IMG/VR virus record: IMGVR_UViG_3300020596_000066
Span: 1-36,852 of that record
DNA from: a virus
DNA length: 36,852 nt
Direction: 5' to 3' (one strand)
This document shows positions 4,469 through 25,749 of this stretch, piece by piece. Under the pieces are notes generated by a model, which was given only the letters and a program-made list of their open reading frames with translations, did not search any database and was not told the origin of the DNA. The position numbers and the translations under genes were made by a program. The stretch's first letter is position 1; each line of letters opens with the position of its first letter.

Positions 4469-4862
4469 ATTGAATCTCCAATGGTTCGGTACGAGCCTGA
4501 GGAGGACTGCTCGTGGTGTTCGTGAAATCGCTGTCCGATGCGAATTCCGAAACTTTGCCGAGGACGAGGAAATCGTTCCACAATTCGAGGCCGCTGCACC
4601 GGGGAGCGAAGTTTCGGATGAGCATCGCGACCACGAAGAAAACGCTGCCGACGCCGACCAGAATGGGCGTGGTGAACGCCCCAACAAGTACGACTGCGAC
4701 CCCCACGAGGGTCACCCCCAAGGAGAACTGGATCACCGAGGGGTTCGCGACCATCCACGGATCGTTCACGATGAAGAATTCCTCACCTCGGCGATTTTGC
4801 ACCACCGAAAGCCCCCCCACGGGGGCCAAACGCTTGAAAAGTTCTATCCGCTCGGCGTTCAT
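4458..4862 (-). CDS. Membrane protein with two transmembrane helices
   Basis: 134 residues from the ATG at 4862, which overlaps the stop of the upstream gene (ATGA). Residues about 43-63 and 66-82 are strongly hydrophobic and form two transmembrane segments with a short turn. A soluble N-terminal part of about 40 residues includes an RRGEEFFIVNDP beta segment, and the C-terminal tail is polar. It could be a superinfection-exclusion or lysis-related membrane protein, but nothing specific supports that. Confidence 0.65.
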   Translation of the reverse strand: MNAERIELFKRLAPVGGLSVVQNRRGEEFFIVNDPWMVANPSVIQFSLGVTLVGVAVVLVGAFTTPILVGVGSVFFVVAMLIRNFAPRCSGLELWNDFLVLGKVSEFASDSDFTNTTSSPPQARTEPLEIQYER

Positions 4863-19959: not shown

Positions 19960-20253
19960 ATGCCGTCGCTAAAAGACAAAGACGAACGCAACCTTGACGG
20001 TTACGAGGCTCAGATGCACGCCGTGGAAAAAGGACGACGTGTTACCCAAAACGTAATCAAAAATGACCGAAAAGCATACAATCAACACACCGGAACCGAG
20101 ATAGCTGGGCCTATGGAATCTGCATTCATGGATGGCGGAAGTAGCGGCAACAAAGGTTCCGCTTTCATAAGAGTAAGAAAAAAGGGAGCCCGAAGGCTCC
20201 CTTTCCCGATCCGTCCTGTTGCTATGTGGATCAGACACCGTCAACTTGGTTAG
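19960..20253 (+). CDS. Doubtful hypothetical protein
   Basis: 97 codons from the ATG at 19960. Residues 1-70 (MPSLKDKDERNLDGYEAQ and on, then a glycine-rich stretch) look natural. The last 27 codons run through the bidirectional terminator and the end of the tmRNA gene on the other strand, and are probably not native. No ribosome binding site is seen. Confidence 0.35.
   Translation: MPSLKDKDERNLDGYEAQMHAVEKGRRVTQNVIKNDRKAYNQHTGTEIAGPMESAFMDGGSSGNKGSAFIRVRKKGARRLPFPIRPVAMWIRHRQLG
20180..20207 (-). terminator. Bidirectional terminator ending the tmRNA gene
   Basis: GGGAGCC (20184-20190) pairs with GGCTCCC (20195-20201) around CGAA. On the minus strand a run of six Ts follows. Confidence 0.75.
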
Positions 20254-20528
20254 GCAGCGAGAGCGTAGCTCTCGGTTCCCTCGTACTCGTTTCCGAGCAC
20301 GTAAGCCTCATTGTCATTCATCGCCGAAGCGTTGACTGTTATTATAGCCAGTCGGCCAACCAGTTAGGTCTAGGAGAAATCTCCGGGTCTAGCTTTTTAC
20401 TGCGAATCGAGCCTGTTTCACCCCCACTAAGCATCCCGACTTTATAGTCCATTACACGGGGTGCTTAGTGGAGGTGTCGGGTACCGCCCCCGAGTCTTCG
20501 TCAGCTATTACTAAACTTTCAATCTAAC
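20202..20528 (-). ncRNA. ssrA: Circularly permuted tmRNA (alphaproteobacterial type)
   Basis: Reading leftward, the acceptor part comes first: a T-arm (TCGGG/CCCGA, loop GGCGGTA) and the acceptor strand CACCTCC (20470-20476). Next is an intervening hairpin closed by ACTAAGCA/TGCTTAGT (20462-20469 with 20426-20433), then the partner strand GGGGGTG (20419-20425). The acceptor stem pairs fully and has the G3-U70 pair that marks alanine charging. A tmRNA-like D region follows (GAAACAGGCTCGATTCG). The tag frame runs 20321 to 20250, begins MNDNEAY and ends ESYALAA then TAA. CCA is not encoded. AGCTA/TAGCT could form helix P2 between the two pieces. It should be cut into two RNAs that rescue stalled ribosomes and mark the products for ClpXP. 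Confidence 0.85.
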
Positions 20529-20534
20529 AGTACC

Positions 20535-20563
20535 TACTTAGGCGGTTCCGCCTATCATGTCAA
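20535..20563 (-). promoter_or_regulatory. Promoter of the tmRNA gene, -35 shares a stop codon
   Basis: Minus strand TTGACA (20558-20563), 17 bp, TAAGTA (20535-20540). The TGA of the -35 box is the stop of the 20560-20994 gene. The spacer is a perfect palindrome arm set (TAGGCGGAACCGCCTA) that could bind a regulator. Confidence 0.7.
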
Positions 20564-22142: not shown

Positions 22143-22259
22143 CCCCGGGAACTCCTTCTTCCATATCATACAGTTCCCGTTATCACGGTACTCGTACCGG
22201 TGTTCGTCGGTCTCTATGACCAGAGTGATCTGGCTCACCTTGATCGGCTTACGCATCAT
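22002..22259 (-). CDS. Small hypothetical protein downstream of RNA ligase
   Basis: 85 residues from the ATG at 22259, which overlaps the end of the RNA ligase gene. Residues 1-45 (MMRKPIKVSQITLVIETDEHRYEYRDNGN and on) look natural and beta-rich. The C-terminal third lies antisense to the end of the broken HNH gene, so the true end is uncertain. As the last gene of the RNA-repair operon it might help repair, but no motif supports that. Confidence 0.5.
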   Translation of the reverse strand: MMRKPIKVSQITLVIETDEHRYEYRDNGNCMIWKKEFPGLLVRLVRFAINHLNLAELINAHVWRLRIGDSVGDAVGSLSARPPHD

Positions 22260-23496
22260 CACCGCCTGTGAATAAAATCGGGATCCATTCTGCACCGAAC
22301 AAATATCGAACCTGTTCTAGCATCGGCCCCGATCCCGTATGTGTAAGAATCGTCTCGACAATGAAATCCCGAACCGGAACCTTCACGACAGTTTCCCCGG
22401 TCTTTCGGTCCAACGGGGGAAAACGGTACGCGTGTTCCTGAAACAGAAACGCACGCCGGGGATTGTTCTTGATTGATTCCGCGAATTCCTTCTTCGAGGG
22501 ATTCCCCACGAACAGGGACTCGAACTCCGTCTGGATCGACCTCGCATAGTTCGTGATGTGTGTGTTCACGGCGTCCGCGAACTCCAACAGGTGTTCGCGA
22601 TCCGAGGGGATCAAGTGCGGAACAAGATCGTCCACCCGGTTTTCCAAGACGATTTTAACCGCGTCTTTCTCGAAACGGAGTTCATCCTTGGTGCGATGAA
22701 TGAGCACGTACTCGTCGCACTTGAGTTTCGCCCGGTGCCCATCATCGAAGAGAACCACGAAGCCCTCAACTCCGGTCATCGCCTTAACCTCGGACAGGAA
22801 CACGGTCATGTCTCGACGCTGCGGGATATGACCCACGACGGGTATACCCTTGGGTTCGGCCCATTGGAGCATTCTCTCGTACGGGATGTATTCTCCGTTG
22901 ATCATGTAACGGATCGCGGTGAGGATAAGCTGATCCTCGGGATAATCCAGAACGATGCGGTTCTTTCTGGTGCACCATTCGAAAATACAGGTGCGTCCCG
23001 CATCCGCCATATCATTGACGAATCCCGTGTAGTTGATCTTCGGATTCATATACTCGACGTATGAACGGGCCTGCTCGGAGATATTCGTGACACCCGCCCG
23101 AGTACCGAACAAAACCCCACCCTGTGTGCGGATGGTTCTGACCATTGATCCGTCCAGTTTGGTCAGCGCATGATGGGGACGAGTCAGGTCGATATCCTCG
23201 ACGAGGGAATCCAAACGCTCTCCGGCGTTGAAGAACTTATTGAAGGGTCTGGAGAGAATTTCGCCCGTACTGGGGTGATACGCGATCCCTCGGCATTCAC
23301 GACGCAGCGCGGCAATTTCCTGCTCCTCGGGGGTGCCCTGCATGAGCGGAAAGGTGTCTTTGAAATTCACATTGTAGTCGATCACGGAATGCGCGAAATC
23401 GCCATCTTCGCGTTTCCAGTTTCCGAATTCATCACGACCTTCAATCGCCCGCAGAACGGGTTCAATCGTGGTCAGGTGGGGGAATTTGTAATGCAC
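22249..23496 (-). CDS. rnlA: RNA ligase, T4 Rnl1-like
   Basis: 415 residues from a GTG at 23496 (GGAG lies 10 nt upstream). Nucleotidyltransferase motifs appear in order: ECRGIAY near 68, motif I LTKLDGSMV with Lys113 as the adenylated residue, motif IIIa CIFEW near 172, motif IV EGFVVLF near 244 and motif V KLKCDEYV near 257. The length and layout match T4 RNA ligase 1 rather than Rnl2. The C-terminal 120 residues would be the tRNA-specific domain. It should seal 3'-OH and 5'-phosphate ends left after the upstream kinase-phosphatase heals cut RNA, as T4 does after anticodon-nuclease attack. Confidence 0.85.
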   Translation of the reverse strand: MHYKFPHLTTIEPVLRAIEGRDEFGNWKREDGDFAHSVIDYNVNFKDTFPLMQGTPEEQEIAALRRECRGIAYHPSTGEILSRPFNKFFNAGERLDSLVEDIDLTRPHHALTKLDGSMVRTIRTQGGVLFGTRAGVTNISEQARSYVEYMNPKINYTGFVNDMADAGRTCIFEWCTRKNRIVLDYPEDQLILTAIRYMINGEYIPYERMLQWAEPKGIPVVGHIPQRRDMTVFLSEVKAMTGVEGFVVLFDDGHRAKLKCDEYVLIHRTKDELRFEKDAVKIVLENRVDDLVPHLIPSDREHLLEFADAVNTHITNYARSIQTEFESLFVGNPSKKEFAESIKNNPRRAFLFQEHAYRFPPLDRKTGETVVKVPVRDFIVETILTHTGSGPMLEQVRYLFGAEWIPILFTGGDDA

Positions 23497-23720
23497 AACC
23501 ACTCCAATGCGGATTCGGGAGAATCAAATATACCCGTGAATGACGGGTGGGTGGTCAACGCGATTTGAATACAATTTTCACTGTACCAACGGACAATTCC
23601 ACGATTCTCGAACCGTCCACCACCCGCTCCACGTCGCCATCGGTTATGCCCAAGGGTTTCCCCCGGACTTTGCGGTCCCAAATGTGATTCGCAGGCCCGG
23701 AGGAATTCATCTTTAGTCAT
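23472..23720 (-). CDS. Small protein between the RNA-repair genes
   Basis: 82 residues from the ATG at 23720, which overlaps the end of the kinase-phosphatase gene; its own end overlaps the RNA ligase start by 25 nt. The core WRRGAGGGRFENRGIVRWYSENCIQI reads as a beta-rich basic patch that could bind nucleic acid. It is not recognised. The tight overlaps on both sides mean it is made in step with the two repair enzymes. Confidence 0.65.
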   Translation of the reverse strand: MTKDEFLRACESHLGPQSPGETLGHNRWRRGAGGGRFENRGIVRWYSENCIQIALTTHPSFTGIFDSPESALEWLCITNSPT

Positions 23721-25068
23721 CGTTTCCGTAACTCACCTCGAACGAGAACTGCTTCTTCTCCTCGATGATTTTCAGGTCCATGTAAGAGAGCTTCCCGCCC
23801 TTGGACGAGCCGGTATCGAGGAAAATCGCCTGACCGCCCTGTGGATTGGTCTTGATCACGGGAGCCTCCATAGAAAGGACCGCGTGACCAATCACGGAAG
23901 TGTACCGCGCGGGGAGAGTATCAACCCAATTATAGGACCGCTTGGGGTAGACGTTCCCGTCGAGTCCGACCACGGTCTCATTTCTGACGACCTCACCGAA
24001 CATCGCCAGCGCCCACACCGGAGAATTATCCGGAAACCGGAAACGGGGATGCTCGTACATCTCCGACACTGCCGCACCGTGGGCGAATCCATAGACGCGA
24101 TCCACATCGATCACGATGAAGTCCGGACTCATCTCCACGGTCTGCCGAAACCGGGTGATCCACGCGGCACGATCAGTGGGGTTCAGCGTGAGAAGTTGGT
24201 TCACCGTGACCGCGTTGCCATGCCCGATAGTACCGCCGTAGGGCTTCTTCTCCTCACCCGGGGGCGGAACCTTCGTGTACCAATCAACCCACTTGGCGAT
24301 CTTCACCTCGTGATTCGCACGGATATTCGAGGCCACGCCTTGAACGAGTTGCTCATGTACGAGATTCAACGTGCTCAGGGGGTCTACACCGTAATCCACG
24401 ATATCCCCCAAAAAGAGGTTATACGTTTTCGGATTGTTCATCACGCGGAGCATCCCGTCAAGATTCCCGTGCACGTCGCCGATCACACGAATCTTCTCAT
24501 ACCCACGACGAACCAGTTCGGGAACCACCATTTGGGAATCCCGCACCAGTGGCTCCACCACCTCGAAACGATCCACCCGGGCATCCACCACGGCGATCTT
24601 GATTCCAAGCTTGTTACCGGGATCACCCGCGAGAATCTTCTTCTCGTTCGCGACGAATGTCTGCTCGTGCTTCTCGATCAGTGAGAGACCATCCCCCACC
24701 ACGACGGTGGCTCGCCATCCCGCGCTGGCCTGTTTCTCCGGGATCGACCGATTAAACACCAGATAGATCACGGGCACATTCAGCGAAGAACCGATCTCGG
24801 CAGTTCGCAGACGATCCGCGTCTCGCAAATGGGTCGCGTCCGCGACACACCGATAGCCGTTCCGGAGCTTCCATTCGATCCGGCGCTCGAATTCCCGGAA
24901 AATCTCATCCCCCTTGTCCTGACGGGTGAAATCTCCAAACAAGTCTTGACGAATCCCATCCGAGGAGACAATCTCGTGCTCACCGAAATGCTCCCGCGCG
25001 AGCGTGCTCTTTCCCGCCCCACTGGGGCCGACCAGAATCACGAGGGAACCGAGGGGAATCTTTTTCAC
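23713..25068 (-). CDS. pnkp: Polynucleotide kinase-phosphatase, bacterial Pnkp-like
   Basis: 451 residues from a GTG at 25068 (AAAAGG upstream). The only earlier in-frame start is an ATT near the -10 box. Residues 1-165 are a P-loop kinase (GPSGAGKST at 14-22, then SSDGIRQDLFGD and DATHLR). Residues about 190-430 are a calcineurin-like phosphatase: GDVHG at 197-201, GDIVDYG at 221-227, NHE at 252-254 (the usual GNHE has Ala before Asn), GHGN, and GHAVL with FLDTGSSKGG. This equals the kinase plus phosphatase part of Clostridium thermocellum Pnkp, without its ligase domain; a separate ligase gene follows. It would add a 5'-phosphate and remove 2',3'-cyclic or 3'-phosphate from broken RNA. Confidence 0.85.
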   Translation of the reverse strand: MKKIPLGSLVILVGPSGAGKSTLAREHFGEHEIVSSDGIRQDLFGDFTRQDKGDEIFREFERRIEWKLRNGYRCVADATHLRDADRLRTAEIGSSLNVPVIYLVFNRSIPEKQASAGWRATVVVGDGLSLIEKHEQTFVANEKKILAGDPGNKLGIKIAVVDARVDRFEVVEPLVRDSQMVVPELVRRGYEKIRVIGDVHGNLDGMLRVMNNPKTYNLFLGDIVDYGVDPLSTLNLVHEQLVQGVASNIRANHEVKIAKWVDWYTKVPPPGEEKKPYGGTIGHGNAVTVNQLLTLNPTDRAAWITRFRQTVEMSPDFIVIDVDRVYGFAHGAAVSEMYEHPRFRFPDNSPVWALAMFGEVVRNETVVGLDGNVYPKRSYNWVDTLPARYTSVIGHAVLSMEAPVIKTNPQGGQAIFLDTGSSKGGKLSYMDLKIIEEKKQFSFEVSYGNDD

Positions 25069-25104
25069 TTGTCCAAGACCTTTTTCAAAATATCTATCCG
25101 GAAT

Positions 25105-25133
25105 GGTATATCCGGAAGCCAATACAATGTCAA
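25105..25133 (-). promoter_or_regulatory. Promoter of the RNA-repair operon
   Basis: Minus strand TTGACA (25128-25133), 17 bp, TATACC (25105-25110). It overlaps the start codon region of the divergent deaminase gene, so the two may interfere with each other's expression. Confidence 0.65.
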
Positions 25134-25664: not shown

Positions 25665-25749
25665 GCCCCCGTGGCGGAATTGGCAGACGCGCCTGACTCA
25701 AAATCAGGTTCCTCACGGAGTGTCGGTTCGAGTCCGACCGGGGGTACCA
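25665..25749 (+). tRNA. tRNA-Leu (CAA)
   Basis: 85 nt with an acceptor stem GCCCCCG/CGGGGGT, anticodon loop CTCAAAA (anticodon CAA), a long variable arm as expected for leucine, T-loop TTCGAGT and an encoded CCA. The D-arm TGGCGGAATTGGCAGACG is typical of tRNA-Leu. Confidence 0.95.

Follow-up and report, generated by a model that had tools for sequence, protein, structure and literature searches.

Permuted tmRNAs in bacteria and phages

The two-piece tmRNA of Caulobacter has been shown experimentally to be functional, and under the accepted proposal it is processed by RNase P and tRNase Z (PMC3985003). Genes of this type are also carried by phages. In the study of phage Melnitz, 53 of the 133 unique phage tmRNAs were of the two-piece type (PMC9004378), a tmRNA database holds 79 phage sequences and gave rise to RF04321, the Rfam model of the permuted form (PMC11915505), and a tmRNA has been reported from the Sinorhizobium jumbo phage AP-J-162 (PMC11242549). 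For a tmRNA limited to the tRNA-like domain, such as that of mycobacteriophage DS6A, titration of SmpB has been proposed, with a precedent for inhibition (PMC4131195). We found the exact alpha-type T-arm/acceptor motif in at least 119 stretches of IMG/VR. The gene described here is a new and divergent addition to these already known phage-borne permuted tmRNAs.

A complete permuted tmRNA gene in a viral contig

The stretch that we analysed (hereafter the window) comprises positions 1-36,852 of IMG/VR virus record IMGVR_UViG_3300020596_000066, a linear metagenomic contig. Its minus strand carries, at about 20552–20178, a complete circularly permuted (two-piece) tmRNA gene; the features of the gene given below are all on this strand. 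A scan of the window with Rfam cmscan matched RF01849 (alpha_tmRNA) at 20511–20393, minus strand (71.6 bits, E 9.4e-18, curators' cut-off 50), in an alignment limited to model columns 74–179, and RF04321 (tmRNA_permuted) at 20516–20250, minus strand, over the full model (62.5 bits, E 6.3e-10, cut-off 47), and gave no gathering-level match to the one-piece tmRNA RF00023. The original prediction, made from the letters of the window, had called the locus a phage-encoded circularly permuted tmRNA of the alpha type and had proposed an Infernal run with RF01849 on the minus strand as a check. Both models score above their cut-offs, so that the identification is borne out and does not merely reflect likeness to the one-piece form; a check of other phage sequences, as also proposed, gave a permuted tmRNA in 50 of 50 phage contigs re-tested. 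ARAGORN missed the tmRNA gene, a tRNA-Leu at 25665 being its sole output, and the locus is thus an example of a permuted tmRNA that this tool can overlook and Rfam detects.

The Rfam alignments likewise confirm the reversed order that had been read from the sequence: the T-arm and 3' acceptor strand lie upstream of the 5' acceptor strand, D region and tag, with the closing hairpin in between, which gives the succession acceptor piece, intervening sequence (IVS) and coding piece. The acceptor piece begins with the 5' strand of P2b (GUUUAG) and an internal loop (20505..20516), which the minimum-energy fold pairs with CUAGAC, followed by the P2a strand CUGACGAA and GAC (20494..20504), which pairs with UUCGCAG, and by the T-arm UCGGGGGCGGUACCCGA (20477..20493), which was placed by the Rfam alignments and is part of the alpha-type T-arm/acceptor motif. 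In the coding piece, the 5' acceptor strand GGGGGUG (20419..20425), the expected end of the RNase P product, is followed by the D-like region AAACAGGCUCGA (20407..20418; Rfam alignment), for which the alpha consensus at other loci is AAAUAGGAUCGA, and by the 3' strands of P2a and P2b (UUCGCAG ... CUAGAC; 20383..20406), located by the pairing test and the fold. Judging from comparison with dinucleotide shuffles, the 388-nt gene stretch is strongly folded (z = -6.8), and its unconstrained minimum-energy fold contains the T-arm, the acceptor stem, P2a and P2b together.

The upstream and downstream P2 strands of the window form a duplex of -5.6 kcal/mol. When either partner was replaced by its counterpart from 87 other permuted genes, this value was equalled by only 1/87 and 3/87 of the substituted strands, and over all genes native pairs averaged -4.2 kcal/mol versus -2.1 for swapped ones. 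The letters themselves have changed, being CGAA/UUCG in the window and ACAG-type/CUGG-type in most other genes; because the native strands beat nearly all swapped partners, the helix has been kept despite these changes.

At the 5' side, a hairpin, GGCGGAACCGCC (20541..20552), likely belongs to the end region of the precursor, since its position fits the 5' hairpin of alpha_tmRNA (columns 40-55), an element that also aligned in phage DSS3P8. The original prediction had given the gene its own promoter and its own terminator, and only the latter was upheld. A consensus scan returned no sigma-70 site, the TTGACA at 20563 shares bases with the end of an upstream ORF on the same strand (20994-20560), and the presumed spacer holds the hairpin at 20552-20541, which resembles one that the alpha_tmRNA model puts inside the RNA. 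The intrinsic terminator (20178..20207) is strong, with a 13-bp stem and a T run. It is preceded by the conserved GCAACAG motif and the 3' strand of the last hairpin (GAUCC/GGAUC; 20208..20222); this motif is part of the alpha_tmRNA consensus and was present in 32 of 122 permuted genes versus 5 control stretches.

Acceptor stem and intervening hairpin

The 3' acceptor strand CACCUCC (CACCTCC in the DNA, 20470..20476) pairs with GGGGGUG at all seven positions (7/7), including G3-U70, exactly as had been predicted. The closing hairpin is equally real (z = -6.2; 0/200 shuffles equally stable). Its 44-nt IVS (20426..20469) forms a stem that prolongs the acceptor stem by 8 unbroken pairs, giving one unbroken hairpin of 15 pairs, as against a continuation of 0–2 pairs in the other phage genes read. 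The acceptor strand is followed by the discriminator A and CUA, not by A-CCA, and the gene therefore encodes no CCA; almost all other phage genes read do encode it, and of those that do not, a few have ACUU and one has ACCC. With the CCA position locked in a helix, processing could be slowed.

These traits might be taken as signs of decay. We rejected the CCA-less, extended hairpin as proof of it, because 7 of the 30 tmRNA genes read from bacteria, almost all of them Rhizobiales, also lack CCA, and because an ordinary Rhizobiales gene (L178, with ACCC and no encoded CCA) has the identical 8-pair extension and 15-pair acceptor/IVS hairpin.

Among the phage permuted tmRNAs, three (L133, L148 and L156) have ACTT replacing ACCA, and L148 and L156 encode a tag of nine residues, ADENLALAA.

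Tag frame and resume position

The predicted tag ending in YALAA was found in a frame (20250..20336) that runs uninterrupted from the resume point to the stop and reads VNASAMNDNEAYVLGNEYEGTESYALAA before the stop codon, with a hydrophobic, Ala-rich end of the degron type. Two registers are candidates for the resume position: GUC after UAACA, which gives 28 residues and resembles the GUC after UAAAU of the L009/L035/L125 group, or the following AAC after CAGUC, which gives 27. The usual resume signal is UAAaU before a GCA codon, and in the 80 other genes with which the register was compared, most tags begin at this GCA and comprise 9–16 residues, with two groups at 29 and 31. The latter lengths, about twice the usual, were seen in the phage tmRNAs L080, L096 and L094 (ANDNALSNVTFVDFSAPVTAVNEDFALAA and ANDNVAQPKFMKKRNTFARKVGFTKGMALAA).

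Divergence and the possibility of a decoy

The RF04321 score of the window gene is the lowest of all full-length genes compared: scores were 73–135 bits in 50 phage contigs, a sample picked by exact motifs and hence biased towards consensus-like genes, 107–119 bits in DSS3P8, MD18 and Phosso, and, among Rhizobiales, 113–162 bits for main copies and 92.6 bits for one second copy. A permuted tmRNA was found in 144/150 Rhizobiales genomes. Searches of IMG/VR with the upstream ORF or the RNA ligase returned no close relatives of the window phage.

Such a low score counts in favour of a decoy or a decayed copy that kept the tRNA-like domain, with an RNA that remains unmatured or does not tag and that could titrate host SmpB. 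The missing CCA and its locked position point the same way, as do the inhibition precedent from an RNA limited to the tRNA-like domain (PMC4131195) and a simple pseudoknot search in which PK1, upstream of the tag, scored no better than shuffles (many other phage genes likewise have a weak PK1). We nevertheless regard a decoy or decayed copy as unlikely, given that the 28-codon tag frame is intact with a proper end, that the P2 pairing has been kept, that the terminator and the 3' GCAACAG hairpin are present, and that the locked hairpin recurs in the Rhizobiales gene.

One bacterial genome, that of Pseudaminobacter manganicus JH-7 (G015), has a second permuted tmRNA (L158, ~4660-4830; 130.3 bits) beside its main copy of 148.5 bits. 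This second copy has a GAUU-type D region, as in some phages. Next to it are genes for an enoyl-CoA hydratase and for an alpha/beta hydrolase, and none that clearly belong to a prophage.

Phage context, host and SmpB

The proteins of the window include a T4-type RNA ligase, a PNK-phosphatase, a DNA ligase, a dCMP deaminase, an endolysin, HNH endonucleases and Nudix proteins, and the contig is a phage fragment. Being metagenomic and linear, it could in principle have acquired a bacterial gene through host contamination or misassembly, yet the tmRNA gene has phage genes on both sides (RNA ligase, PNK-phosphatase, endolysin and DNA ligase) and its D-region motif GGGGGYGAAACAGGCTCGATT has 0 occurrences in 190 genomes of the class, which makes such an origin extremely improbable. 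Only marginally more credible is the view that an integrated phage, on excising imprecisely, took along a piece of the host tmRNA or an att-site remnant. Integration at tmRNA genes is common (PMC9004378), but the present gene is complete and ends in a terminator of its own, its score lies far below those of the Rhizobiales genes compared, and there is no integrase among the ~30 window proteins scanned.

The nearest relatives of the RNA ligase are in Sinorhizobium phage Phosso, phiM-type phages, roseophages and Caulobacter phage Cr30, plus one Synechococcus phage, and those of the DNA ligase in DSS3P8, V10, Cr30 and CcrColossus. From these relatives, which are mainly phages of alphaproteobacteria, the host is probably an alphaproteobacterium. 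The same host had been predicted from the tmRNA type; the ligases support it independently, whereas the alpha-type tmRNA alone is no proof of such a host, because Melnitz, an OM43 phage, has an alpha-type permuted tmRNA and infects a gammaproteobacterium (PMC9004378).

We found no SmpB in the window and none in 21 phage records, several of which are fragments; host SmpB would thus be needed, and phages with such genes would reuse the ribosome-rescue pathway of the host in dependence on its SmpB. On the same strand, ~1.7 kb upstream of the tmRNA, lies an RNA-repair pair, PNK-phosphatase then T4-type RNA ligase (22249-25122, minus strand). The combination suggests that the phage may be armed against losing translation RNAs.

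Proposed maturation and function

Taken together, we consider it very probable that the phage genome carries a complete alpha-type permuted tmRNA gene that functions normally, as a two-piece tmRNA that uses host SmpB. The gene order, the tRNA-like domain, the P2 pairing, the tag frame and the terminator were observed directly in the window gene; the steps that follow are modelled on them. The transcript would fold with the acceptor stem continuing as the intervening hairpin, the cut before GGGGGUG would be made by host RNase P, and RNase Z or another nuclease would release the other strand downstream of the discriminator A, with CCA then supplied by the host CCA-adding enzyme. The two pieces would be held together by the acceptor and P2 helices and could be charged by AlaRS via G3-U70. 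Together with host SmpB, the tmRNA would rescue stalled ribosomes and append a tag of ~28 residues ending in ALAA, which would direct the fragments to ClpXP-like proteases. The phage may benefit by keeping up ribosome turnover while host mRNA is cut and host tmRNA is perhaps short.

Alternatively, the 28-residue tag, the unusual resume codon and the locked, CCA-less hairpin might reflect adaptation to the phage, with maturation or tagging unlike that of the host; such an RNA might withstand nucleases of the host or of defence systems, or hold SmpB and not tag. We judge this quite doubtful, and favour a tmRNA of normal function.

Comparison with known systems

Two of the phages compared contain permuted tmRNAs that are unannotated. 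In Roseobacter phage DSS3P8 (L002), a GOLLD RNA (RF02032, 150.7 bits; 1842-2275) is directly upstream of the tmRNA (2446-2832), between tRNA genes. That of Sinorhizobium phage Phosso (L003 2423-3112) has an intervening sequence of 414 nt versus the typical 30-130 nt.

The DS6A-type tmRNA shares with the window gene that it is a phage-encoded tmRNA-like RNA, but it consists of little beyond the tRNA-like domain and lacks a tag frame, whereas the window gene has a full one. With the alphaproteobacterial two-piece tmRNA (RF01849; Caulobacter ssrA), the window gene has in common the permuted order, the T-arm CGGGGGCGGUACCCG, the G3-U70 acceptor stem, the P2 helices, a tag that has NDN close to the start and ends in hydrophobic, Ala-rich residues, and the 3' GCAACAG hairpin. 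It differs in that it encodes no CCA and aligns to RF01849 at columns 74-179 only, in that its tag is longer, with an extra AUG codon before NDN, and in the resume position, which is GUC or AAC in the window and GCA in the bacterial RNA. The phage permuted tmRNAs of Melnitz, the pelagimyophages, DSS3P8, MD18 and Phosso likewise are permuted alpha-type genes located in phages, with a short tag ending in LAA or similar and no SmpB in the phage records tested; among them, the window gene stands out by its lower RF04321 score (62.5 bits, as against 107-119 in DSS3P8, MD18 and Phosso), its CCA-less acceptor end and an IVS extension of 8 pairs where the others have 0-2.
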